The notes below the pieces were generated by a model. It was not told the DNA's origin, searched no databases, and saw only the letters and a list, made by a program, of their open reading frames with translations. The translations under genes were made by a program, and so were the position numbers. 64,000 nucleotides of DNA. Origin: Maribacter polysaccharolyticus (GTDB lineage Bacteria > Bacteroidota > Bacteroidia > Flavobacteriales > Flavobacteriaceae). The stretch lies in contig NZ_JARBUY010000007.1 in the NCBI RefSeq assembly GCF_028882255.1, forward strand, positions 62,001 to 126,000, in the 5' to 3' direction. Shown here one piece after another: positions 26,538 to 39,556 of this stretch (position 1 is the stretch's first letter; each line of letters begins with the position of its first letter).

Positions 26538-27731
26538 TCAATTTGTCACTGGGTTTAGGGGAACGGTATTTAAGAGCTCATTTTGGAACGCCTGTAAGCT
26601 TTTTCCCGAAGCTATAGGATGCCCCAATGCGAGCAACGCACATTCCAAAGCATGTAATACGGCCATTAGGTCATTGGATGAGACCGACCCCATATGGCCT
26701 ATCCTGAAATAGGAGGATTTGATCCCAGCGAGCAATCCTCCTGCCAGGATTACGTTTTTCTCGGTTATTTTAGCCCGCAATGCTGCACCATCGATGCCTT
26801 TTGGATAGTAAACCGCTGATAGGGTATGGGCTGCCAAATGGGTTGTTTTTGGCAATATCCTTAACTTCAATGCCGCAATTCCCGCTCTAAAGGCCTTGGC
26901 CAAATTTTGATGTCTTTGGATCCTTTTATCCATGCCTTCGGTACAGATGATCTTTAAACTGGTTTCAAGGGCCACGATCAAATTAACGGCAGGGGTCCCG
27001 AAATAAGAAGGTCTTCTTTCTTCGTACGCTTGCATTATGGGTAGCCAATTGTTCCAATCCGCATAATAATTGCCAACGGGCGTTTTTCTGTTTTTGAACA
27101 CTCCCATGGCTTTTTGGGAGGCCATTAAAAGGGCGAGACCGGGAGGTACCCCGATGGCTTTTTGCGAAGCGGTCAAAACAACATCGATACCCCATTCGTC
27201 TTGCTTCAGTTCTTCCCCGGCAACGGAACATACGCCATCCAAAATGGAGAGTACATGGTATTTTTTGGCCAAATCCGCAATGGGTTTCGGGTCTATCAAT
27301 ATTCCTGTGGAAGTGTCGACATGGGTAAGGGTAAGTACTTTATAGGGTTTTGATCGGAGTTCGTTTTCAATGGCGTCAAGGCTTACCACTTCCCCTATCG
27401 GGGCTTCTAAAATGGTGGTGTTCGCACCATACCGATCCAAAATGTCCTTAAACCGATGGCCAAAGTAACCGGAGGAAATAACGAGGGCGTTATCGCCATG
27501 TTCAATAAGGTTGGCCGCGGCCATATCCATGGCCAAGGTGCCCGTACCCGCAACGATAAAAGGTTGGCCCGAGGGCGATTGCCATACCTCCCTCATGAGT
27601 TCAAGGCTATTTCCAAAAACTTCGATAAATTTAGGGGCAATATGACTTGTTGTCGCCTGGCCCATGGCTTGTAAGACTTCCGGTTCAAATTCGATAGGAC
27701 CGGGAATCATGAGTAGTTTTCTTCCTTTCAT
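26538..27731 (-). CDS. Class V aminotransferase, alanine-glyoxylate type
   Basis: This PLP enzyme probably converts glyoxylate to glycine using alanine or serine as donor (AGXT/serine-pyruvate transaminase group). The 397-residue protein starts with the family segment KLLMIPGPIEFEPEVL. It has the PLP-binding Asp165 in SILDGVCSVAG and the Schiff-base Lys191 in TASQKAIGVPPGLALL, followed by PSYFGTPAVN and the YFRIGHMG C-terminal motif. It lies five bases after the RraA-like gene in a series with isocitrate lyase and malate synthase. That strongly suggests it drains glyoxylate made by isocitrate lyase. A role with phosphonate (2-AEP) substrates is less likely. Confidence 0.88.
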   Translation of the reverse strand: MKGRKLLMIPGPIEFEPEVLQAMGQATTSHIAPKFIEVFGNSLELMREVWQSPSGQPFIVAGTGTLAMDMAAANLIEHGDNALVISSGYFGHRFKDILDRYGANTTILEAPIGEVVSLDAIENELRSKPYKVLTLTHVDTSTGILIDPKPIADLAKKYHVLSILDGVCSVAGEELKQDEWGIDVVLTASQKAIGVPPGLALLMASQKAMGVFKNRKTPVGNYYADWNNWLPIMQAYEERRPSYFGTPAVNLIVALETSLKIICTEGMDKRIQRHQNLAKAFRAGIAALKLRILPKTTHLAAHTLSAVYYPKGIDGAALRAKITEKNVILAGGLLAGIKSSYFRIGHMGSVSSNDLMAVLHALECALLALGHPIASGKSLQAFQNELLNTVPLNPVTN

Positions 27732-27736
27732 GGCTA

Positions 27737-28213
27737 TTACACTAAATTTTGTTTGCTGATCAATATGCCGTCATGATCCACATAAATATATTCATCCTGT
27801 ATAAAAGTAACACCTCCAAATTCAACAGCGACCCCGATTTCCCCATTATTTCGTTTTATACTCTTAACGGGGGAAGTGTTTAGCGCCCTGATACCGATGT
27901 TCATGGTATTGATGGGCTGACTATCGCGAAGGCACCCATTGATGATGATCCCGTTCCAGTTATTTTGAATCGCCAACGTGGCCAATCGATCTCCGACCAA
28001 GGCACAACGTAGGGAGCCACCCCCGTCCACGACGAGTACTTTTCCCTTTCCGTCGGATTCGAGTTGTTTCCGTACCAATGAATTGTCTTCAAAGAGCTTT
28101 AAGGTCGATATTTTTCCCGTAAATGCCTTTTTGTTCCCGAAAGGCCGAAAAATGGGATCGACACAAGTGAGTTGTAAATGGTATTCATCCCAAAGGTCTG
28201 CAGTGGTGAACAT
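27737..28213 (-). CDS. RraA-family protein, probable 4-hydroxy-4-methyl-2-oxoglutarate aldolase
   Basis: This 158-residue protein has the RraA/HMG aldolase fold. The substrate-binding loop GGGSLRCALVGDRLA is followed by the active-site segment GIIINGCLRDS with conserved Arg-Asp. Many RraA homologues outside Enterobacteria are divalent-metal class II pyruvate aldolases or oxaloacetate decarboxylases, not RNase E inhibitors. The ATG at 28213 gives MFTTADLWDEYH, the family start, and the upstream 26 codons to 28291 overlap a stable hairpin and are excluded. It is tightly coupled with the aminotransferase and follows aceA, so a carbon-metabolism role is favoured. Many databases will call it RNase E activity regulator RraA. 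Confidence 0.87.
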   Translation of the reverse strand: MFTTADLWDEYHLQLTCVDPIFRPFGNKKAFTGKISTLKLFEDNSLVRKQLESDGKGKVLVVDGGGSLRCALVGDRLATLAIQNNWNGIIINGCLRDSQPINTMNIGIRALNTSPVKSIKRNNGEIGVAVEFGGVTFIQDEYIYVDHDGILISKQNLV

Positions 28214-28256
28214 GTTTATTGGTTTTGGTAAAAGGGTTCTTTTGGGTAACTGAAAT

Positions 28257-28290
28257 TGGTAAAGGCGACATCCAAATGTCGCCTTTACCA
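28257..28290. terminator. Strong 15-bp hairpin after isocitrate lyase
   Basis: TGGTAAAGGCGACAT, a CCAA loop and ATGTCGCCTTTACCA form a perfect 15-base-pair stem 16 bases after the aceA stop (28307, minus strand). No T-tract follows, so it may stabilise the aceA mRNA 3' end or cause partial termination before the RraA-like gene. Confidence 0.65.
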
Positions 28291-28306
28291 TAGAACTGGA
28301 TCGGAT

Positions 28307-29917
28307 TTATTTGGTTAGGACAAGTTCTATCGTTTCTTCCTTTTCATTCAGTTCAAACTGATTGCTGGTGTTTTTCGCTCCACCCGCTTTTAAGGCCTTA
28401 TCCCCGGCAAAGAACGTTTTATGATCGTCACCCAGGTCAGAACCGGCCATACGTTGGTGTTTCACACAGGAAACCCCTTTTCGTATTTCCTGTCGCTGCA
28501 CCCCTTTAACGTATGCCAACATCCCTTCTTCCCCAAAATACCCTGCTGTAAGGTCGTTCATTTGAAGGGCTGCCGTATGATAGGTGGGCAATGTGATCAA
28601 ATGGTGGAATACCCCGGCATTTTTGGCGGCATCCATTTGAAAGGTGCGGATCATTTCATCGGCCCGGTCCGATAGTGGCGTACCATCGTATTTGGCATCC
28701 ATTAAATTCTCGCGAGAATAGAAAGATACATCCTTACCCGATTTTTTCATGGCATCATATGCCTGCTGGCGAAAATTGAGCGTCCAGTTGAAAGAAGGGG
28801 AATTGTTATATACCAATTTTGCATTGGGTACCTCCTTTTTGACCCTGTTCACCATATGGGCAATCTGTTCCACATTTGGGGTTGGGGTCTCTATCCAAAG
28901 TAAGTCCGCCCCGTTGTTAAGGCTTGTAATACAATCAAGTACCACCCGATCGATATTGGAGTTTTCCTTGAACTTGTAAAGTCCATTGGGCATACGTAAA
29001 GGACGCACTAATTTGCCATTGCGTTTGAACAAAACATCATTCTCATTGACATCGTCCATGGTCACCTCCTCGGCCTCCACAAAATCCATATATTGGGATG
29101 CCAAATCACCTTCTTCTTGGGATACCGGAAGTTTTTGGGTAAGTCCGGCCCCTTCGGAATCCGTTCGTGCCACAATGATACCTTCTTCAACCCCCAATTC
29201 CAAAAAGGCATACCGCAAGGCGTTTAATTTTGCGATGAAATCCTCATGGGGTACCGTAACCTTTCCATCTTGGTGACCACATTGTTTGGCATCGGATACT
29301 TGATTTTCGATTTGAAGGGCACAGGCCCCTGCTTCTATCATCTTTTTTCCTAAAAGGTAGGTGGCCTCTTCGTTACCGAAACCGGCATCGATATCGGCGA
29401 TGATGGGGACCACATGGGTTTCAAAATTGTCGATCTCCGATTGTACATCCTCTCCCGCATCCAAACGACGGAAAAGGTCGTTCAGTTCCACGGCATCGGC
29501 CTGTTTCAAGAAAGTGTATATTTCTTCGATCAGTTTTGGTACGGCCGTTTTCTCATGCATGGATTGGTCGGGCAAAGGTCCCAATTCGGAACGTAACGCC
29601 GCAACCATCCAACCCGAAAGATAAAGGTACTTTTTGTTCGTACTGCCATGATGCTTTTTAACGGCGATCATTTTTTGTTGGGCAATAAAACCATGCCAGC
29701 ATCCTAGGGATTGGGTGTATTGGGTAGGGTCCGCATCATATTCGGCCATATCCTTTCTCATAATACCAGCGGTATATTTGGCAATGTCCAACCCTGTTTT
29801 AAACCTGTTTTGCAAGGCAATGCGCGCTGCGTTTTCCGGACTTATACTAGCCCAGGTATTTCCGTGTTTCGCTTTTAAGTTTCGTACTACTTCCAAGGCG
29901 TTGTTATACTGTGTCAT
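28307..29917 (-). CDS. aceA: Isocitrate lyase
   Basis: This glyoxylate-cycle enzyme cleaves isocitrate to glyoxylate and succinate in the cytosol. The 536-residue protein is of the longer isocitrate lyase type. The catalytic loop reads KQCGHQDGKV with Cys213; this is KKCGH in E. coli, and the Lys-to-Gln change is in the second position only. Other conserved segments are WHGFIAQQ, IADIDAGFGN, GIIVARTDSEGAG and LVYNNSPSFNW. It follows malate synthase on the same strand by 210 bases, with a 41-codon ORF in the gap. Expression is probably controlled by the divergent RamB-like regulator, because the genes let the cell grow on acetate or fatty acids. Confidence 0.97.
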   Translation of the reverse strand: MTQYNNALEVVRNLKAKHGNTWASISPENAARIALQNRFKTGLDIAKYTAGIMRKDMAEYDADPTQYTQSLGCWHGFIAQQKMIAVKKHHGSTNKKYLYLSGWMVAALRSELGPLPDQSMHEKTAVPKLIEEIYTFLKQADAVELNDLFRRLDAGEDVQSEIDNFETHVVPIIADIDAGFGNEEATYLLGKKMIEAGACALQIENQVSDAKQCGHQDGKVTVPHEDFIAKLNALRYAFLELGVEEGIIVARTDSEGAGLTQKLPVSQEEGDLASQYMDFVEAEEVTMDDVNENDVLFKRNGKLVRPLRMPNGLYKFKENSNIDRVVLDCITSLNNGADLLWIETPTPNVEQIAHMVNRVKKEVPNAKLVYNNSPSFNWTLNFRQQAYDAMKKSGKDVSFYSRENLMDAKYDGTPLSDRADEMIRTFQMDAAKNAGVFHHLITLPTYHTAALQMNDLTAGYFGEEGMLAYVKGVQRQEIRKGVSCVKHQRMAGSDLGDDHKTFFAGDKALKAGGAKNTSNQFELNEKEETIELVLTK

Positions 29918-30087: not shown

Positions 30088-30129
30088 AATCCTGTTGATT
30101 GTTACCGCAATCGCAGGATTGCTTTTTTT
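30088..30129. terminator. Hairpin after malate synthase
   Basis: AATCCTG (30088-30094) pairs with CAGGATT (30114-30120), and inside the loop ATTG pairs with CAAT, giving an extended two-part stem. Seven T follow on the plus strand, equal to an A-tract before the stem when read in the aceB direction. It may reduce read-through from aceB into aceA. Confidence 0.55.
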
Positions 30130-31726
30130 AAATGTATTGATAGGCCGGAATCGTAAGGAACTCCTCGAAATTTTCCGAGAGTACCAATTGATCAAAAAGG
30201 CTGAAAGCCAATTGAAACTTGGTGTTTTTTATATGGTCCTCGCCATATTCCGTTATGATTTTTTCTATTTCATGGTCAAAAAGTTTCGCATACAATTCAA
30301 TGTTGAATGTTCTGCCATCCTCCAACTGTACCCCGTTCTTTAACCATTGCCACACCTGTGTCCGGGATATTTCGGCGGTCGCGGCGTCTTCCATTAGATT
30401 ATAGAGGGCAACTGCTCCGTAACCACGTAACCAGGATTCAAGATAAAGGATACCGACATTGATGTTTTTTCTGATTCCCGCTTCGGTAATGGTCCCTTTT
30501 GGGATTTCCACAAGATCCGCTTCGGTAATTCGTACATCGTCACGGGTAACATGTAATTGGTTCGGCGTAGGCATATGTTGATCGAATTCGGATAGGGCCA
30601 CGGCAACTAGGGCAGGATGGGCCACCCAAGTACCATCATGTCCGTTTTTGACTTCCCGTTCTTTGTCTTTCCTTACCTTTTCCAAAGCCTCGGCATTGGC
30701 GGATTCATTGTTCTTGATCGGAATTTGCGCAGCCATTCCACCAATCGCAAGTATGCCCCGTTTGTGGCAACGTTGGATGACCAATTTTGAATACGCCTCC
30801 ATAAAAGGGGTCGTCATGGTTACTTGATCGCGGTTGGGAACGACAAACTCGGGTCGATTCCTGAATTTTTTGATGTACGAAAAGATATAATCCCAACGCC
30901 CACAGTTCAATCCTACAATATGGTCTTTAAGTTCGTATATTATTTCATCCAACTGAAAGCTGGCCGTTATCGTTTCTATCAATACCGTAGCCTTGAAGGT
31001 ACCTTTGGGCACACCAAGGTATTCCTGGGCGAAGGTGAATACCGCATTCCACCAACGGGCTTCGGTATAGTGTTCCAATTTAGGAAGATAGAAGTAAGGG
31101 GCCGTATGCTGTTTTAACAGTGTTTCCGTATTGTGGAACACGTATAGGCCGAAATCCAATAAGCTTCCGGACAGTTCCTCACCATTGATGAAGATATGCC
31201 TTTCGTTTAAATGCAAGCCCCTTGGTCTAACCAGCAATACGGCGGTTTCCGGGTTTAGGGTGTACGATTTGCCCGTATCGGGATTAACGAACGAGATGTC
31301 GTTTTTGTTCGCATCGATGAGGTTTTGTTGGCCTTCCATGACATTTTTCCAAGAAGGGGCCGTACTGTCCTCTAAATCCGCCATAAACGTTTTCGCTCCC
31401 GAGTTCAGGGCGTTGATGATCATTTTTCGGTCTACGGGACCGGTGATTTCCACCCGTCGGTCCTGTAGGTCCTGTGGAATGGCACCGGCTTTCCATTCCC
31501 CGTTACGGATAGTGGTGGTTTCATCGGGGAAGGTGGGAAGCATTCCACTATCGAATAGCTTTTGTTGTTCGTTGCGTTTTTCCAATAGTGAAAGTCGTTG
31601 CGCATTGAATTTTTCATGCAGTGCGGTGATGAAACCAAGGGCCTCCTCGGTCAAAATTTCCGGATAGGTGTTTCTTACCTCATTAGAGAAAGTGATTTTG
31701 GATTGTTTTAAAAGTGTGTGTTCCAT
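30128..31726 (-). CDS. aceB: Malate synthase A
   Basis: This enzyme condenses glyoxylate and acetyl-CoA to malate, completing the glyoxylate bypass. From the ATG at 31726 it is 532 residues; the TTG extension to 31750 would run into the promoter and is rejected. Conserved segments include ITGPVDRKMIINALNSGA, FMADLEDSTAPSW with acidic metal ligands, VRPRGLHLNERH, LNCGRWDYIFSYIKKF and GTWVAHPALV. It is the first gene of the minus-strand glyoxylate series and diverges from the ScfR/RamB-like regulator; the 120 bases between them contain a promoter and repeated operator-like motifs. Confidence 0.97.
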   Translation of the reverse strand: MEHTLLKQSKITFSNEVRNTYPEILTEEALGFITALHEKFNAQRLSLLEKRNEQQKLFDSGMLPTFPDETTTIRNGEWKAGAIPQDLQDRRVEITGPVDRKMIINALNSGAKTFMADLEDSTAPSWKNVMEGQQNLIDANKNDISFVNPDTGKSYTLNPETAVLLVRPRGLHLNERHIFINGEELSGSLLDFGLYVFHNTETLLKQHTAPYFYLPKLEHYTEARWWNAVFTFAQEYLGVPKGTFKATVLIETITASFQLDEIIYELKDHIVGLNCGRWDYIFSYIKKFRNRPEFVVPNRDQVTMTTPFMEAYSKLVIQRCHKRGILAIGGMAAQIPIKNNESANAEALEKVRKDKEREVKNGHDGTWVAHPALVAVALSEFDQHMPTPNQLHVTRDDVRITEADLVEIPKGTITEAGIRKNINVGILYLESWLRGYGAVALYNLMEDAATAEISRTQVWQWLKNGVQLEDGRTFNIELYAKLFDHEIEKIITEYGEDHIKNTKFQLAFSLFDQLVLSENFEEFLTIPAYQYI

Positions 31727-31747: not shown

Positions 31748-31778
31748 CAATAATAAAACAAAGTTTTTGAAAAAACAA
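31748..31778 (-). promoter_or_regulatory. Promoter of malate synthase
   Basis: On the minus strand TTG (31778-31776) and TATTATTG (31755-31748, one mismatch to TAnnTTTG) are separated by exactly 20 bases. Transcription would start near 31741, leaving a leader of about 15 bases. The palindrome at 31779-31790 touches the -33 element. Confidence 0.6.
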
Positions 31779-31827
31779 GCGAACGTTCGCTAAAAATAAA
31801 AATTCGCAAAATATCAATGTTCGCAAA
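31779..31827. promoter_or_regulatory. Operator-like array: palindrome plus three TTCGC motifs at 17-bp spacing
   Basis: GCGAACGTTCGC (31779-31790) is a perfect 12-bp palindrome. TTCGCTAA, TTCGCAAA and TTCGCAAA start at 31786, 31803 and 31820, exactly 17 bases apart. They resemble the TTTGCAAA core bound by RamB/ScfR regulators of actinobacteria, and the adjacent gene encodes a member of that family. Confidence 0.6.
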
Positions 31828-31833
31828 AATGGG

Positions 31834-31841
31834 TATATTTG
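31834..31841 (+). promoter_or_regulatory. Putative -7 box of the ScfR-like regulator
   Basis: TATATTTG matches TAnnTTTG and lies six bases before the ATG at 31847, so the transcript would be leaderless or almost so. The three TTCGC motifs immediately upstream would place a bound regulator across this promoter. Confidence 0.5.
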
Positions 31842-31846
31842 TGTTT

Positions 31847-33325
31847 ATGCAGGAAGATTACATTAAATTGATTTTTGGGTTAAAGCTAAAGCAGATAAGG
31901 ACTGACAAGAATTTGTCCTTGTTTGGGCTGTCCAAACTTTCCGGGCTTTCAAAGTCGTATTTAAACGAAATCGAAAACGGAAAAAAATATCCGAAACCGG
32001 ATAAAATCGCCATCCTTTCAGAGAAATTGGACGTGCCTTATGATCAAATGGTGTCTTTGAAGTTGGATAAAAACCTGGCGCCGATCGGAAATCTGTTAAA
32101 GTCCAAGATCTTGAAAGAGATTCCGTTAGAGCTTTTTGGGATCAAAGAAAGTACCTTGATCGATATTGTGGCCAATGCCCCCGTAAAAGTGAATGCTTTT
32201 ATCAATACCATCATTGAGATAGCCCAAAATTATAATTTTAGCAGGGAAAGTTTTTTCCTGGCATCGGTTCGTTCTTTTCAACAATCGAACAACAATTATT
32301 TTGACGATCTGGAACAAAGTGTGCTGCGGTTCGCCAAAGCCTACCAAATTAATCTGGAAAAGATTCTGTCCTCCAAGGAACTCGAGGAAATATTGATCGA
32401 AGAGTATGGTTATAAGATCAATGGGGACGAGTTGTCCAAGTTTGAGGCATTGGGCAGTTTGCGCTCGGTTTTTATCCCAAAGTCCAAAACGCTTTTGCTT
32501 ACCGATGGAATCGATGAGGCACAGCGCACCTTCATTTATGCCAAGGAAATCGCCTATAATTATTTAGAGACCAAAGAGCGTCTGTTCACCTTCCCGTGGA
32601 TCAAGTTCGATACCTTCGATCAGGTCCTCAATAATTTATATGCTTCTTATTTTGCCGGAGCCTTGGTCATTCCCAAAGACCGGCTTACCAAACAATTGAT
32701 CGGTATTTTCGAAAAGGAAACCTTTGATGCGGATTTGTTCCTTGAGGCCATCAACGCCTTCAATGCTTCGCCGGAATCCTTTTACCAACGATTGACCAAT
32801 ATTTTGCCTAAGGAATTCAATATCCAGAATTTGTTTTTTTTACGGTTTTCGCATAAAGCCAACAGCGATAGGTACTATTTGAAAAAAGAATTGCATTTGT
32901 CGCACCAACATTCACCCCACGCGAACGAAACCGATGAACATTACTGTAGGCGGTGGGTCTCCATAAAAATGTTGAAGGATATTCGTAAAGGTAGGAAGGA
33001 ACATGAATTTGACATGCAGATTTCCAATTATGTAAGCGATGGAATGAAATATCTGGTGTTTGCCTCGGCAACGAAAGATCCCTTTAAAGAAGATTACTAT
33101 CGAAGTATCAGTATTGGTCTACTGATAAACAAACAGTTGGAGCGAAAGGTGAAATTTTTGGAGGATCCCAAGATCGTTACCCGCAATGTAGGGGTCACCT
33201 GCGAACGTTGTGCCATTACCGATTGTAAGGATAGGAAAGTACCGCCAATCGCATTGGAGAAAAGTGCTAAAAACCAAAAGATAGAGAAAATCGTTGAAGA
33301 ATTGAACCAAAGGTTCGGTTCCTGA
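31847..33325 (+). CDS. RamB/PrpR-like short-chain fatty acyl regulator (XRE-type ScfR)
   Basis: This is a DNA-binding regulator of acetate/propionate-type metabolism by family. From the ATG at 31847 it is 492 residues. An N-terminal XRE helix-turn-helix (NLSLFGLSKLSGLSKSYLNEIE) is followed by an IrrE-like (DUF955) region without a HExxH motif. A C-terminal DUF2083 region has the cysteine cluster VTCERCAITDCKDR, which binds iron-sulfur in Mycobacterium PrpR. The ATG at 31817 is less likely because a TATATTTG box (31834-31841) lies between the two, implying a nearly leaderless mRNA from 31847. It diverges from aceB, so it probably controls aceB, aceA and itself. Confidence 0.88.
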   Translation: MQEDYIKLIFGLKLKQIRTDKNLSLFGLSKLSGLSKSYLNEIENGKKYPKPDKIAILSEKLDVPYDQMVSLKLDKNLAPIGNLLKSKILKEIPLELFGIKESTLIDIVANAPVKVNAFINTIIEIAQNYNFSRESFFLASVRSFQQSNNNYFDDLEQSVLRFAKAYQINLEKILSSKELEEILIEEYGYKINGDELSKFEALGSLRSVFIPKSKTLLLTDGIDEAQRTFIYAKEIAYNYLETKERLFTFPWIKFDTFDQVLNNLYASYFAGALVIPKDRLTKQLIGIFEKETFDADLFLEAINAFNASPESFYQRLTNILPKEFNIQNLFFLRFSHKANSDRYYLKKELHLSHQHSPHANETDEHYCRRWVSIKMLKDIRKGRKEHEFDMQISNYVSDGMKYLVFASATKDPFKEDYYRSISIGLLINKQLERKVKFLEDPKIVTRNVGVTCERCAITDCKDRKVPPIALEKSAKNQKIEKIVEELNQRFGS

Positions 33326-33655: not shown

Positions 33656-36600
33656 ATGGCATTAAAAGTAGTAATCGCACATAAAACCCGTTATAAATAT
33701 GACCGAAGGGTCAATCTTTCTCCCCATATTTTTAGGTTGAGGCCAGCCCCTCATTGTAGGACGCCCATAGCGGCATATTCCATAAAGATAAAGCCGGAAA
33801 CCCATTTTTTCAATTGGCAACAAGACCCTTTCGGAAATTATTTGGCACGTATAGTTTTTCCTGAAAAAACGGAAGAACTATCGGTAGAGGTAGAGATCAT
33901 AGCGGATTTAAAGACCATAAATCCTTTCGATTTTTTTGTGGAGGAAGCTGTTGAGGAATTTCCCTTCGCTTATTCCAACGATCTGAAAAAAGAACTTATG
34001 CCTTATCTGGAAGTCACCGAAGACGGTCCTTTGTTAAAGGAATGGATAAGCAAGCTAGATCTGACCCCCATACGCACCATCGATTTTCTTACCGGTCTGA
34101 ACCAGAAAATATACGAGTATCTGGATTATACCATACGCATGGAACCTGGGGTGCAGAGTTCGGAGGAGACCTTGGAACGTCGGTTGGGATCGTGTAGGGA
34201 TTTTGCCTGGTTGTTGGTACAGACCCTAAGACATTTGGGATTGGCAGCGCGTTTTGTTTCGGGATACCTGGTCCAATTGAAGTCGGACGAAAAATCATTG
34301 GACGGACCATCGGGTCCGGAAGAGGATTTTACCGATCTGCATGCATGGGCCGAGGTCTATATACCAGGGGCCGGATGGATCGGTTTGGATGCCACTTCCG
34401 GACTTTTGGCAGGGGAGGGGCATATTCCCTTGGCATGTACCCCTTCGTTTGAAAGTGCCGCTCCGGTTTACGGATTGACCGATCCGTGTGAAACCGAATT
34501 TGAGTTCGATAATTCGGTAACCCGGATATTTGAATCCCCTCGGGTGACCAAACCGTATACCGACGACCAATGGAACGCCATTTATAATTTAGGCTTTGCA
34601 GTGGAAGAGGAACTACAGGCCAATGATGTGCGGCTTACCATGGGTGGCGAACCGACCTTCGTTTCGATCGATGATATGGAAGGGGAAGAATGGAATACCG
34701 CCGCGGATGGGGAAAACAAGAGGGAATTGGCAAGTTCCCTTTCCTTGCGACTGTTGGATGCTTTTGGGAAGGGTGGAATGCTGCATCATGCGCAGGGCAA
34801 ATGGTACCCCGGGGAACCTTTACCCCGTTGGCTTATTGGGATCCATTGGCGTAAGGATGGTAAAACGATTTGGAAAGACCCCAAATGGTTGGCTTCTTTT
34901 ACGGAAACCTATACGTTGCCCGAAGGTATTACAAGTACCTTCCTGCATACCTTATCGAAGAAATTGGCTTGTCCGGACAAATCCATTATACCCGCCTATG
35001 AAGATGCGTTTTATTTCTTATGGGAAGAAGGTAAACTTCCTGTGGATGTTGACCCAACCGAATATGACAAAAAAGATACGGCCTTAAGGCGAAAGCTGGG
35101 GGAAGTAATGGAACAAGGCTTGGGCAAAACCGTAGGGCACGTTTTACCGCTGGCAAAAAGCAATGGGCTTTGGATCACCAATACCTGGGAGTTCAGGGGG
35201 GGACATCTTTATTTAACGCCCGGAAACTCACCGGTAGGATTGCGCTTACCTTTGGAATCCTTACCCAAAGACCCCGAAGTGCCCTCAACACCAACGGCGG
35301 AACCCGAGTTGTTCGAACCAAAACCGGACCTAAAGGCCTATGGGGAAGAACTGCAAAAAAGATTGGAGGCGAAAGCGCCCATAACCACTTTGGAAAAACA
35401 GCCTTATGTACGAACCGCTTTATGTGCTGAGGTAAGGGACGATAAGTTGTTCCTTTTCTTACCGCCTTTGGACAGTGCAGAGGACTTTCTCGATTTGGTG
35501 GCAAGTATTGAAGCAACGGCAAAGGAATTGGAAGTGCCCGTAATTATCGAAGGGTACGAACCACCAAGGGACAACCGATTGGAAGTGCTTAAGATCACTC
35601 CGGATCCCGGGGTCATCGAGGTGAATGTTCACCCGGCAAAGAATTGGCAAGAACTTACCGCCAATACCTTTACTTTGTATGAGGAAGCGAAAAAATCGCG
35701 TTTGGGTACCGAGAAATTCATGTTGGATGGCAAACATACGGGTACAGGAGGGGGCAACCACGTTACCTTGGGCGGTACTACCCCAGCGGATAGTCCGTTA
35801 CTCCGAAATCCCCAACTTCTTCGTAGTTTACTCACATTTTGGCAGCATCACCCTGGGCTTTCGTATTTGTTTTCAGGGGCCTTTATCGGCCCGACGAGTC
35901 AGGCTCCCCGTGTCGATGAAGCGCGACTTGAGAATCTTTACGAGCTTGAAATCGCATTTTCACAGATTCCCGATGATGAAGAAGTACCGTTTTGGTTGAC
36001 CGACCGTTTATTCCGTCATTTACTGACCGATATTACCGGGAATACCCATAGGGCGGAATTTTGTATCGATAAATTATATTCCCCGGATTCTTCCTCTGGG
36101 CGGCTCGGTATTTTGGAGTTGCGTGCTTTTGATATGCCGCCACATGCCCAGATGGGACTTATGCAGATGCTTTTGGTGCGAACCTTGGTATCCTGGTTTT
36201 GGAAAAAGCCTTATAAGCATAATTTGGTGCGATGGGGTACCGAACTGCACGATAAATTTTTATTGGAACATTACGTCAAGGAAGATATCAAGGATATTGT
36301 TGGCCAGTTGAACGAGGCCGGATATCCCTTTAAATTGGATTGGTTCGATCCGTTTTTCGAATTTCGGTTCCCGTTATACGGTATGGTAGAGATCAACTCC
36401 ATGCATATCGAACTGCGTATGGCCATAGAACCATGGAATGTTTTGGGGGAAGAAATGTCAGGTCGTGGAACGGCACGTTATGTCGATTCCTCCTTGGAAA
36501 GGGTGCAGATAAAAATAACCAACTTTATCAAAGAGCGGTATATTCTGACCTGTAACGGGGTGAAAATAGAACTGAGCCCGACCGGAGTCAAGGGGGAATA

Positions 36601-36982
36601 TGTTGCCGGGGTACGTTATAAGGCTTGGGAACCATGGTCCGCATTACACCCAACAATCGGGGTAGATGTACCTTTGGTCTTTGATGTGGTGGATCAGTGG
36701 AATAAGAAATCCATTGGCGGATGTACCTATTTTGTAGCCCATCCAGGAGGGCGCTCTTATGACACCTATCCCGTGAACAGTTATGAGGCGGAATCGAGGA
36801 GGATCAACCGTTTTTGGGATTTTGGGCACTCCCAAGGAGAAGTGACACCGACGGAAACGGGCCCTATGACCATTTTTACGGGTAGGATGGTTGAACCTAA
36901 GGAAGCTTCCGGTATTTTTGAGTACAAAGAAGTTCCCGTTAATCATGAATACCCACATGTGTTGGATTTGCGAAAGAAATAA
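33656..36982 (+). CDS. Transglutaminase-DUF2126 fusion (predicted peptide ligase component)
   Basis: This large cytosolic protein has 1108 residues and two parts. Residues 1-300 form a bacterial transglutaminase-like unit: an N-terminal Bact_transglu_N beta domain, then Cys180 (GSCRDFAWLL), His229 (DLHAWAEVYIPG) and Asp245 (GLDATSG) as an intact Cys-His-Asp triad. From about 320 to the end is DUF2126, starting RLTMGGEPTFVSIDD and containing KHTGTGGGNHVTLGG and ELRAFDMPPHAQM. Iyer and Aravind predicted this to be a circularly permuted glutamine-synthetase-like amidoligase. It starts a three-gene operon with an ATP-grasp/alpha-E protein 12 bases downstream and a second transglutaminase. A peptide- or protein-tagging role is predicted, not proven. 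Confidence 0.9.
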   Translation: MALKVVIAHKTRYKYDRRVNLSPHIFRLRPAPHCRTPIAAYSIKIKPETHFFNWQQDPFGNYLARIVFPEKTEELSVEVEIIADLKTINPFDFFVEEAVEEFPFAYSNDLKKELMPYLEVTEDGPLLKEWISKLDLTPIRTIDFLTGLNQKIYEYLDYTIRMEPGVQSSEETLERRLGSCRDFAWLLVQTLRHLGLAARFVSGYLVQLKSDEKSLDGPSGPEEDFTDLHAWAEVYIPGAGWIGLDATSGLLAGEGHIPLACTPSFESAAPVYGLTDPCETEFEFDNSVTRIFESPRVTKPYTDDQWNAIYNLGFAVEEELQANDVRLTMGGEPTFVSIDDMEGEEWNTAADGENKRELASSLSLRLLDAFGKGGMLHHAQGKWYPGEPLPRWLIGIHWRKDGKTIWKDPKWLASFTETYTLPEGITSTFLHTLSKKLACPDKSIIPAYEDAFYFLWEEGKLPVDVDPTEYDKKDTALRRKLGEVMEQGLGKTVGHVLPLAKSNGLWITNTWEFRGGHLYLTPGNSPVGLRLPLESLPKDPEVPSTPTAEPELFEPKPDLKAYGEELQKRLEAKAPITTLEKQPYVRTALCAEVRDDKLFLFLPPLDSAEDFLDLVASIEATAKELEVPVIIEGYEPPRDNRLEVLKITPDPGVIEVNVHPAKNWQELTANTFTLYEEAKKSRLGTEKFMLDGKHTGTGGGNHVTLGGTTPADSPLLRNPQLLRSLLTFWQHHPGLSYLFSGAFIGPTSQAPRVDEARLENLYELEIAFSQIPDDEEVPFWLTDRLFRHLLTDITGNTHRAEFCIDKLYSPDSSSGRLGILELRAFDMPPHAQMGLMQMLLVRTLVSWFWKKPYKHNLVRWGTELHDKFLLEHYVKEDIKDIVGQLNEAGYPFKLDWFDPFFEFRFPLYGMVEINSMHIELRMAIEPWNVLGEEMSGRGTARYVDSSLERVQIKITNFIKERYILTCNGVKIELSPTGVKGEYVAGVRYKAWEPWSALHPTIGVDVPLVFDVVDQWNKKSIGGCTYFVAHPGGRSYDTYPVNSYEAESRRINRFWDFGHSQGEVTPTETGPMTIFTGRMVEPKEASGIFEYKEVPVNHEYPHVLDLRKK

Positions 36983-36994
36983 TTCAATTATTAT

Positions 36995-39556
36995 ATGCCG
37001 ATAACAAGTACCAACTGGTTAAGTAATTATATCACTGAATATAAGAATGACGAAATGTTCACCCCAAATAACGGGGTGAAACCGTATTGGAATAAGTTAC
37101 TCACGGAATTTGATAAGTTGGGTGTCAACGGTTTGATGGCGCGCCAAAAAGATATCGATTGGCTGTTATCCGAAAATGGGGTCACCTACAATGTGTATAA
37201 CGATCCCAATGGGATGCATCGCCCGTGGAACCTTAACGTAGTTCCATTTTTATTGCATCAGCGCGAATGGCAGACCATCGAGGTCGGTTTAAAACAACGG
37301 GCCGAATTGTTGAATTTGGTCCTAAAGGATATCTATGGGGAGGGTAACCTCATCAAAAACGGTATTGTTCCCTACGAAGTGATTTATGGTCACCGTGGAT
37401 TTTTGAGGCAATGTGCGGGGATCGAATATCCGACCGATAAATTCCTTTCGATGTATGCCGCCGAATTGGCACGGGGTACAGACGGACGGTTATGGATAGT
37501 GAATGATAGGGCGGAGGCCCCTTCAGGAATGGGTTATGCCCTCGAAAACAGGTCAACGACCAGTAGGATCTTACCGGAGATGTATGCTAAAATGAACGTG
37601 AAGCGCATATCGGGGTTCTTTAGGGAATTGAACCAAATGCTGGTCGATGCTTCCCCAGTGAAAAAGGAGAACCCGAATATCGTTATTTTAACCCCAGGTT
37701 CCCGCAATGAGACCTATTTTGAGCATGCTTACCTCTCTTCCTTTTTAGGGTATCCTTTAGTGCAGGGCAATGATCTTGTGGTTAGGGATGGTTTCCTTTG
37801 GATGAAATCCTTGCAAGGACTCAAACGTATTGATGTCGTCCTCAGAAGGGTCGATGATGCGTATACGGATCCCTTGGAACTTCGTGAAGATTCCCACTTG
37901 GGGGTGGCCGGCCTGTTGGATGTGGTACGAAGAAAGAATGTTTCGATAATCAATCCCGTGGGGAGTGGGGTTATCGAAAACCCGGGGTTGATCCCTTTTA
38001 TGCCTGCCATAGCCCGATATTTTTTCAATGAGGAGTTGATCTTGCCACAAATAGCCTCTTGGTGGTGTGGGCAAGAACAGGAAAAAAAATATGTATTGGA
38101 CAATTTACCACAATTGGTAATCAAGAAAATAGACCGTACCAATAGGGAAAGTATACGCTTCGGGGAATTTTTGACCCAGCGGGAATTGAACGACCTTAAA
38201 AATGACATAGAACAAAGTCCGTATAGTTATGTCGCACAGGAAAAAATAAGCTTTTCCACCGCTCCGAATTTGGTCCAAGGGACTATTGAGTCCAGGAACT
38301 TGGTAACCCGAGCCTTCTGTATTGCCTCCGCTGGGGGGTATAGTGTAATGCCCGGCGGATTGGTCCGGGTAGCACCAGATCGGAAAACCGTAAGGGTCTC
38401 CAATCAAAGGGGGGGCACGAGTAAGGATTTTTGGGTTTTGGAAGATCGTCCCATCAAGGCAGATCAGCTTAGACATTGGCAAAAAAGGAGTCCGGTTGCC
38501 ATATCGGGTTTAAAGGATTTACCTAGTCTTACCGCTGAAAACCTGTATTGGGCAGGTCGGTATGTAGGGCGTACCTTGGTCAACGCGCGATTTTTACGGA
38601 TGGTAATGCGGCAAATAGCTTTGGTACAGAATAGGAACGAGACTCCCGATTCGGTGAAGCTCGAGGTCCTGTTCAAGGCAGTGACCCATTTAACGGGTAC
38701 ATACCCGGGTTTTGCTGAGAAAACCAAAGAAGGCAAATTGGCCATGGAAAATCCCATGGAAGAATTACTTTCGGTAATATTGGACAAGGATCGGCCCGGA
38801 AGTTTGGCGCATACCATAGCCATGTTCAGTAATTCCTATTATGCCATAAGAAACCTTTGGTCATCGGATATGTGGCGGGTTTTCGATAATATTCAAAAAA
38901 CATGGCAAAGTTTCGAAGATAGTAACGATCGTTCGGTAAATAAGATTTTAAAAGTCCTCAACCAACTCATTACCCGTTTAATCGCCTTTATGGGATTGAT
39001 AGAGGAAAGTATCTTGGTACAGCAGGGACTGCTGCTCTATTTTATAGGGTTGCAATTGGAACAAAGTATGCTCACCATCTCCAAATGTCGCTCCCTACTT
39101 ACCATAGAATATGAGGAACAGGTAGAATATGACCTTTTGGAGTACCTTTTGACCAGTCACGAAAGTCTTAATATTTATAGGTACAGCTATCGGTCCTATA
39201 TACAATTGGAGAATGTTTTGGATCTTGTGGTGTTAGACCTGGAATATCCCCGATCTTTGACCTTTATGTTGAACAGGATCCAGAAGGATATAGCCCGTTT
39301 ACCCCATTCCCAGGAAGATCATTCATTGTGCAACTATCAAAAATATATTTTTGAGGCCTTCTCGAAATTACGATTGGCAGAATCCTCCCAATTGATCAAA
39401 ACAAAATCGGGGTCCGATTTCTTTCGGGCCGATCTCGATCGCTTGTTGAAGGAACTCTCGGGGCTTTTGTACGAAACCTCAAAATCGATTACCAGCACCT
39501 ATTTTAACCATACCGATAACCAAAATCAATTGGTTATGCAATCATTTCCTATTTAA
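36995..39556 (+). CDS. Circularly permuted ATP-grasp plus alpha-E domain protein
   Basis: This 853-residue cytosolic protein combines two domains usually encoded by separate neighbouring genes. The N-terminal part (about 1-480) is a circularly permuted type-2 ATP-grasp ligase: MHRPWNLNVVPFLL, LNLVLKDIYGEGNLIKNG, VILTPGSRNETYFEH, and later SFSTAPNLVQG and GGLVRVAPDRK. The C-terminal part from about residue 505 is the all-helical alpha-E (DUF403) domain, opening SLTAENLYWAGRYVGRTL. ATP-grasp enzymes form amide bonds through acyl phosphates; alpha-E is a partner of unknown chemistry. It starts 12 bases after the DUF2126 gene and its stop is one base before the next ATG, so the three are one transcription unit. 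Confidence 0.9.
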   Translation: MPITSTNWLSNYITEYKNDEMFTPNNGVKPYWNKLLTEFDKLGVNGLMARQKDIDWLLSENGVTYNVYNDPNGMHRPWNLNVVPFLLHQREWQTIEVGLKQRAELLNLVLKDIYGEGNLIKNGIVPYEVIYGHRGFLRQCAGIEYPTDKFLSMYAAELARGTDGRLWIVNDRAEAPSGMGYALENRSTTSRILPEMYAKMNVKRISGFFRELNQMLVDASPVKKENPNIVILTPGSRNETYFEHAYLSSFLGYPLVQGNDLVVRDGFLWMKSLQGLKRIDVVLRRVDDAYTDPLELREDSHLGVAGLLDVVRRKNVSIINPVGSGVIENPGLIPFMPAIARYFFNEELILPQIASWWCGQEQEKKYVLDNLPQLVIKKIDRTNRESIRFGEFLTQRELNDLKNDIEQSPYSYVAQEKISFSTAPNLVQGTIESRNLVTRAFCIASAGGYSVMPGGLVRVAPDRKTVRVSNQRGGTSKDFWVLEDRPIKADQLRHWQKRSPVAISGLKDLPSLTAENLYWAGRYVGRTLVNARFLRMVMRQIALVQNRNETPDSVKLEVLFKAVTHLTGTYPGFAEKTKEGKLAMENPMEELLSVILDKDRPGSLAHTIAMFSNSYYAIRNLWSSDMWRVFDNIQKTWQSFEDSNDRSVNKILKVLNQLITRLIAFMGLIEESILVQQGLLLYFIGLQLEQSMLTISKCRSLLTIEYEEQVEYDLLEYLLTSHESLNIYRYSYRSYIQLENVLDLVVLDLEYPRSLTFMLNRIQKDIARLPHSQEDHSLCNYQKYIFEAFSKLRLAESSQLIKTKSGSDFFRADLDRLLKELSGLLYETSKSITSTYFNHTDNQNQLVMQSFPI

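Follow-up and report, generated by a model that had tools for sequence, protein, structure and literature searches.

Acyl-CoA control of the glyoxylate bypass by regulators of the ScfR type has been described before. In Corynebacterium glutamicum, RamB represses the bypass. PccR of Rhodobacter sphaeroides, an ScfR family member with pccB as its target, reportedly has an operator of paired boxes, TTTGCAAA-N4-TTTGCAAA, whose box sequence and spacing differ from those of the locus studied here. RamB of Mycobacterium tuberculosis represses icl1, a gene of the bypass, as well as its own gene, and the box recognized by PrpR, a regulator of the methylcitrate cycle, is the octameric palindrome TTTGCAAA (PMC3420887). 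A further report describes PrpR as a tetramer that locks CoA and contains a [4Fe4S] hinge (PMC6765138). The closest match in gene layout is RamB of Paracoccus, which activates the divergent glyoxylate-bypass operon, binds CoA esters and has a motif with an 18 bp spacer (PMC10370305). The open-licence literature yielded no published account of glyoxylate bypass control in Bacteroidota, and none of ScfR control in this phylum or of the operator described below. What is new in the present analysis is a regulator clade together with its putative operator.

The window, a stretch of 64,000 nucleotides from Maribacter polysaccharolyticus, contains aceB (malate synthase A, 532 aa; 30128-31726, minus strand, ATG at 31726; Pfam MS_N, MS_TIM-barrel and MS_C), followed in the same direction by the open reading frame of aceA (isocitrate lyase, 536 aa; 28307-29917, minus strand; Pfam ICL). 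Divergent from aceB lies the gene of an XRE/ScfR-like regulator (492 aa; 31847-33325, plus strand), recognized by Pfam, fold and cysteines, with the cluster motif CERCAITDC. In the intergenic region, the initial annotation had pointed to a perfect palindrome and to three TTCGC motifs spaced by exactly 17 bp. Both are present. The palindrome GCGAACGTTCGC occupies 31779-31790 and widens to the 14-bp word AGCGAACGTTCGCT at 31778-31791, which sequence and conservation mark as the probable core operator, with no strand of its own. The TTCGC motifs start at 31786, 31803 and 31820 and are thus 17 bp apart in both steps. The second and third belong to TTCGCAAA words; they form array half-sites 2 (31803-31810, plus strand) and 3 (31820-31827, plus strand), at +17 and +34 from the right arm of the palindrome.

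The Bacteroidetes promoter consensus is TTTG/TAnnTTTG. On the minus strand, a TTG (31778-31776) and TATTATTG (31755-31748) are separated by 20 bp and together form a near match to this consensus, TATTATTG being imperfect; they are the putative -33 and -7 elements of aceB. The first base of the TTG is also the outermost base of the palindrome, which fits the statement that the palindrome touches the -33 element, and the putative -7 element lies 29 bp from the operator centre. On the other side, the putative -7 element of the regulator gene, TATATTTG (31834-31841, plus strand), lies 14 bp after the third box, which places this box inside the regulator promoter. The element ends 5 nt before the regulator ATG, a distance that suggests a leaderless or near-leaderless transcript, and the regulator mRNA is probably of this kind. 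Many listed relatives of the regulator have a similar TATATTTG-to-ATG arrangement. Two open reading frames of 1108 aa (33656-36982) and 853 aa (36995-39556) lie 3' of the regulator on the same strand. The genes 3' of aceA (26538-28291) are BhcA-like, i.e., resembling aspartate-glyoxylate aminotransferase (216 bits, under the cut-off of 650), and RraA-like (215.5 bits, over the cut-off of 136), and possibly are a glyoxylate-handling extension of the aceBA operon.

The ScfR architecture ascribed to the divergent protein was borne out: it combines an HTH_3 domain, M78/IrrE-like and ScfRs (DUF2083) matches slightly short of the Pfam cut-offs, a predicted PrpR-like fold and the four cysteines of a [4Fe4S] cluster. 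The N-terminal HTH domain (PF01381) was found in the window regulator and in 24 of 24 relatives. For the middle part, all 24 relatives also matched the IrrE-like model PF06114 (E up to 0.001), for which the window protein scored 20 bits against a cut-off of 22; the HExxH protease motif was absent from 77 of 77 regulators. The model of the C-terminal ScfRs domain, PF09856, matched 18 of the 24 relatives (E up to 0.001); the score of the window protein was 22.8 bits, where the cut-off is 24, and 25.4 bits in the genome search. This Pfam model is insensitive for the clade, as it detected 13 of 395 class genomes, compared with 61 of 395 for a purpose-built profile. An AlphaFold2 model of the regulator (pLDDT 85.5) had as top Foldseek matches in the PDB the entries 6cz6, 6cyy and 6cyj, with M. 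tuberculosis PrpR as the best (E 6e-13 to 7e-12), and a profile of the part following the HTH matched the same PrpR entries.

PrpR (MccR; PDB 6cz6/6cyj/6d2s) and the window regulator share the predicted fold, the four cysteines and the adenine contact F240, whereas identity over the structural alignment is only about 19%, H319 is mostly lost in the clade, and box and target pathway differ. The cluster cysteines of PrpR (C363 plus C-X2-C-X4-C; residue numbers from PMC6765138) align with C367, C452, C455 and C460 of the window protein. Comparisons across the clade were made on 149 Bacteroidota regulators, one row standing for one genome place, after leaving out L008 and L010 (repeats), L009 (a fragment), L064 (at a contig end) and ten repeated places. 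All four cluster cysteines occur in 144 of these regulators. The CoA contact F240 is a phenylalanine in 147/149, whereas the contact H319 is a histidine in 34/149 and mostly Q (58) or Y (49), which counts against the proposed reading. Among the 144, 16 have another cysteine spacing (L213, L216, L217, L221 and others; C-X2-C-X6-C in those listed). In L259, L261, L257 and L258 (family labels f25 and f24) the C-terminal cluster cysteines are missing, and these proteins may be natural [4Fe4S]-free versions; L259 and L261 have a perfect operator beside aceB despite this.

The regulator is not RamB itself. Its best NCBIfam model was RamB (NF038139), which requires 700 bits and gave 48.8, and phylogeny puts it in a separate clade. 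Two midpoint-rooted trees were built, of 40 and 36 rows, with 13 and 7 classical ScfRs, respectively, all from plasmids; the Persicobacter row L136 was left out of both, its product being 12 residues long due to the choice of start codon. In both trees a long branch with 100/100 support splits the clade from the classical ScfRs included. A tblastn search of plasmids with the window protein gave two Persicobacter records only, and the classical ScfRs were retrieved with a PrpR stretch. On the best reading, the regulator would belong to a clade that is sister to the acyl-CoA regulators of the ScfR/RamB/PrpR group and split off deeply from them. L093, the regulator of a genome outside the order (G621), branches among the Flavobacteriaceae and shares 78% identity with the window regulator, as would result from transfer or mis-binning.

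RamB of class 1 (Corynebacterium/Mycobacterium) belongs to the ScfR family like the window regulator and likewise targets the glyoxylate bypass; it differs by the NCBIfam RamB score just given. RamB of class 2 from Rhodobacterales (Paracoccus denitrificans) shows the same divergent regulator-aceB-aceA layout at seven plasmid loci, but differs in its boxes, its helix (SxSY(V/I)TLIE) and its separate clade (100/100). In the seven Rhodobacterales intergenic regions, TAATGTCA is found in 6/7 and TTGTAA repeats in 7/7; these regions contain no palindrome and no TTCGC, and a single GCGAA (L135). The similarity of the boxes to the actinobacterial TTTGCAAA core thus needs qualification. The array boxes are indeed one base off this core, reading TTTGCGAA on the other strand (7/8 to TTTGCAAA), but a different motif accompanies the Rhodobacterales RamB that shares the gene layout. 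The core of the window sites is TTCGC(T/A)AA; only the two array boxes come within one base of TTTGCAAA, the palindrome half-sites match fewer positions, and the TTTGCAAA core itself is absent. The helix stretch SxSYLN is common to the window protein, an MccR-like protein of P. aminophilus and Streptomyces rows. The recognition helix reads SKSYLNEIE in the window protein, SPSYLNQIE in the MccR-like P. aminophilus protein and SASYVTLIE in a class 2 RamB, and these few rows suggest that recognition helix and box sequence may be linked.

The palindrome is widely conserved next to this regulator. Within 300 nt upstream of the 149 regulators, AGCGAANNTTCGCT was found 111 times in perfect form and 23 times with one change, i.e., 134/149 regions have at most 1 of 12 positions changed. 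In 2980 dinucleotide-preserving shuffles there were no perfect copies and three with one change. Conservation at this level indicates that the palindrome is more than a rare coincidence. Among relatives of the same order, the motif was perfect in 54 of 68 loci and one change away in 13. The outer letters of the 111 perfect sites are fixed by construction, so what informs is how far the counts exceed the shuffles and which bases fill the unconstrained central pair. This pair was CG in 51, AT in 28, TT in 19, TA in 6, AA in 3, GT in 3 and CT in 1. All these conservation counts come from related genomes and do not represent independent events.

With a high degree of confidence, the palindrome can be regarded as the putative operator of the divergent ScfR-like regulator, and it is quite probable that the two are paired in the control of aceBA. 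Acyl-CoA sensing by the regulator appears likely. That the bound regulator activates aceBA is favored with modest confidence, and the same modest confidence applies to repression of its own gene. In the proposed mechanism, a regulator dimer would bind to AGCGAANNTTCGCT, the palindrome, with additional subunits, as part of a tetramer, occupying TTCGC half-sites on a grid of 17-18 bp; half-sites lie at 0, +17 and +34 in the window and on both sides of the dyad in some genomes. If the aceB transcript starts about 6 nt after the -7 box, the palindrome centre would be located some 42 bp before this start. Related HTH activators such as lambda cI contact RNA polymerase from about -42. Protein at the +34 half-site, which falls in the stretch separating the -33 region of the regulator promoter from its -7 region, would bring about self-repression, and the switch would be an acyl-CoA bound in a pocket like that of PrpR, under a [4Fe4S] lid. 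The tetramer, the acyl-CoA switch, aceBA activation and self-repression are suggested by the position of the sites relative to the two promoters, by the PrpR tetramer with its CoA lock and by the activation and CoA-ester binding reported for Paracoccus RamB. What the sequence itself supports is the operator with its conservation and its link to the regulator, along with the predicted fold and the cysteines; binding, oligomeric state, direction of control and ligand are predictions.

The position of the operator relative to the promoters recurs in other genomes. In 93/134 regions, a TANN[AT]TTG box begins at a distance of 23-29 bp from the centre of the operator, compared with a mean of 1.6 in shuffles preserving composition only (92/134 if only the first match is counted). 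The two bases after TTCGCT are TG in 65/134 regions, and in 13/134 the last TTCGC lies 14 bp from TANNTTTG, the -7 box on the regulator side. The same operator and regulator could also act in the opposite sense, with aceBA repressed and an acyl-CoA ligand altering the repression, which we regard as possible but on balance doubtful. The example for such repression is M. tuberculosis RamB, acting on icl1 and on its own gene (PMC3420887). Since the palindrome touches the -33 box, a bound protein could hinder the polymerase here as well. However, the operator abuts the promoter instead of covering it, the distance of 23-29 bp between its centre and the -7 box in 93/134 regions corresponds to a usual place of an activator, and an aceB -7 box that is imperfect relative to the consensus (TATTATTG) does not favor repression. 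Moreover, Paracoccus RamB, with the same layout, is an activator (PMC10370305). Activation of aceBA by the bound regulator is the reading retained here.

The arrangement of the half-sites was analyzed for the 134 regions whose palindrome is perfect or one change away, using shuffles that keep base composition only. A TTCGC at +17 is present in 27/134 regions, spread over 12 family labels, where 0.035 would be expected. It occurs at +34 in 14, at +35 in 9 and at +18 in 6 of the 134 regions, with expected values of 0.025-0.085 per tested offset. An inverted GCGAA/T at +28 or +29 was found in another 26 of the 134 regions, including f5 loci, a direct (T/A)TCGC at +35 in 18/134, and GCGAA on the other side of the palindrome, at 17, 18 or 19, in 27/134. 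The exact 17-bp spacing is therefore real and recurs across lineages, but it is optional and differs between them; with a 17-bp box in only about one fifth of the regions, it is not essential. The box array that had been put forward as the main feature gives way to the palindrome as the conserved core. A chance origin of the palindrome and the +17 box was rejected on the shuffle comparisons. The related view that only the palindrome matters, the 17-bp spacing of the TTCGC boxes having arisen locally by coincidence, can point to many lineages in which the array is missing; most listed loci of genus label g46 have the palindrome alone. It is nevertheless highly improbable, given the 27 regions with TTCGC at +17 against 0.035 expected, in 12 family labels, and given that a pattern containing the +17 box recovers the regulator in metagenome-assembled genomes (MAGs) labelled Bdellovibrionota and Chloroflexota. 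Within the window, TTCGCAAA by itself is unremarkable (7 matches vs 3.65 expected, 8/100 shuffles reaching 7), and both the perfect TTCGCAAA pair at 17 bp and the palindrome occur once.

Operator and regulator also stay together when aceB is not adjacent. The operator is present in 110/114 regions with a divergent aceB and in 24/35 loci lacking aceB in the fetched flank. The 15 of 149 regulators that have no good palindrome within 300 nt, four with a divergent aceB and 11 without aceB, count against the pairing of operator and regulator; one of the four, L088, has a palindrome about 961 bp upstream, beside aceB, and the acetate-CoA ligase loci L257 and L258, which have none, belong to the 11. 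In the own genome (4.76 Mb), the 14-mer is found a single time, and the scan for arrays proposed in the initial annotation found exact matches to TTCGCWAA-N9-TTCGC, two overlapping ones, only at this locus. The sole copy of the 12-mer with a single mismatch is inside an open frame of 1147 residues. Searches of the same genome for a second site gave no excess, neither with up to two mismatches (93 matches on each strand vs 114 for the reversed control) nor with the array pattern (110/113 vs 119/107 for the control). Six candidate second sites were inspected, and five lie within an open frame of at least 80 codons; L102 does not.

Second copies were also searched in 40 regulator-bearing genomes, 39 of which were chosen for carrying the exact 14-mer, whereas the remaining one, G084, has a variant. 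The choice excluded genomes whose sites have a GTAC or TT centre, so this test says nothing on site frequency. None of the 39 carrier genomes has a second copy of the 14-mer. It is also absent from 40 regulator-less genomes, an observation that is weak alone because none of the 80 genomes contains the reversed control word either. These counts point to a single dedicated site and not, by themselves, to co-occurrence. This bears on the possibility that the palindrome is bound by another protein, for example a global regulator, and that the neighbouring regulator acts elsewhere. The 15/149 regulators without a good palindrome nearby leave some room for it, but at loci where aceB is not adjacent the palindrome is still found next to the regulator (24/35), and the exact 14-mer has no second copy in the 39 carrier genomes, making this reading very improbable. 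A global regulator as the binder, in particular, was rejected, as the single copy does not fit such a protein. That the palindrome is an intrinsic terminator or an RNA hairpin deserves next to no credence and was rejected: a terminator scan does report the palindrome, read on the minus strand and followed by a T-rich run, but the same scan gives 10 sites vs 9.1 in shuffles, such a run is found in only 45/134 regions, no gene ends there, the palindrome is upstream of both inferred start sites, and half-sites recur about 17 bp on either side. The palindrome as operator of the divergent regulator remains our preferred reading.

The regulator was detected in 91/395 order, 61/395 class and 70/395 phylum genomes, in samples that overlap. 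Among the first 78 loci, two of which repeat a place, aceB was found in 75 and was always divergent. At genome level, aceB (E 1e-60) was present in 27/27 regulator-bearing genomes searched and in 0/46 plus 0/80 (0/126) regulator-less genomes; these 126 are a part of the regulator-less genomes in the samples, and 54 of the 80 are at least 90% complete. Patchiness of the glyoxylate cycle within Flavobacterium has also been reported (PMC10655711). In genome G024, where aceB was not found, a regulator fragment (residues 219-490; L009) comes directly after a fragment of aceA; a single deletion appears to have taken aceB, the operator and the regulator N-terminus together. At loci without aceB, the divergent partners identified by HMM include a FadD-like acyl-CoA ligase (L214, L218, L220; by eye also at L219, L222, L223 and L229), isocitrate lyase (L226), PEP carboxykinase (L254), acetate-CoA ligase (L257; by eye also L258), adenylate kinase (L234, L236) and an M16-like protein (L234, L240).

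A scan of genome contigs with the DNA pattern only (AGCGAANNTTCGCT-N11-TTCGC) gave at least 119 stretches, 80 of which are listed. Among the 80 matches listed, a regulator starts at most 600 bp from the site in 64, and the regulator match is short or slightly further off in L286, L288 and L334. For 13 of the 80 the regulator was not found in the fetched stretch; some of these resemble chance matches in GC-rich DNA, and they count against the pairing of operator and regulator. The matches listed include site plus regulator in MAGs labelled Bdellovibrionota, Chloroflexota, Calditrichota, Ignavibacteriota and Rhodothermota, as well as in a Lambdaproteobacterium and a Bacillota bacterium, with labels that are fallible, since the 'Rickettsiales' L306 falls among Bacteroidota in the tree. 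The initial annotation had suggested that control of the bypass by a RamB-type regulator with a similar motif is shared between distant phyla. Inside this regulator clade the suggestion holds, because the motif lies beside the same type of regulator in MAGs labelled Bdellovibrionota, Chloroflexota and Calditrichota; it does not extend to Rhodobacterales RamB, which has another motif. Sites lacking a regulator in the fetched stretch were seen next to genes for an acyl-CoA dehydrogenase (L340), isocitrate lyase (L337) and a peptide transporter (L313), which may be unlinked targets of the operator.

At some loci of Hymenobacteraceae and Bacteriovoracaceae the scan pattern matches both strands, i.e., there are four half-sites arranged symmetrically about the dyad. 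We tentatively consider, without giving it even chances, that a grid operator is common to several phyla, combining a palindrome of 14 bp with half-sites spaced on a grid of 17-18 bp and read by an acyl-CoA-locked tetramer. If so, this tetramer would come from a sister clade of ScfR that has no name as yet, and one DNA word would govern aceBA and, elsewhere, isocitrate lyase, a FadD-like ligase, PEP carboxykinase and acyl-CoA dehydrogenase. It would then be an old switch of C2 and fatty-acid metabolism in which the DNA word remained constant while the targets moved. Because operator and regulator can be traced together over deep branches, joint changes of operator and recognition helix become testable. 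For a cultivable flavobacterium, the analysis provides a regulator, an exact putative operator of 50 bp and testable predictions. The palindrome between aceB and the regulator gene is very probably the landing site of its regulator and would be an old control switch of acetate metabolism.
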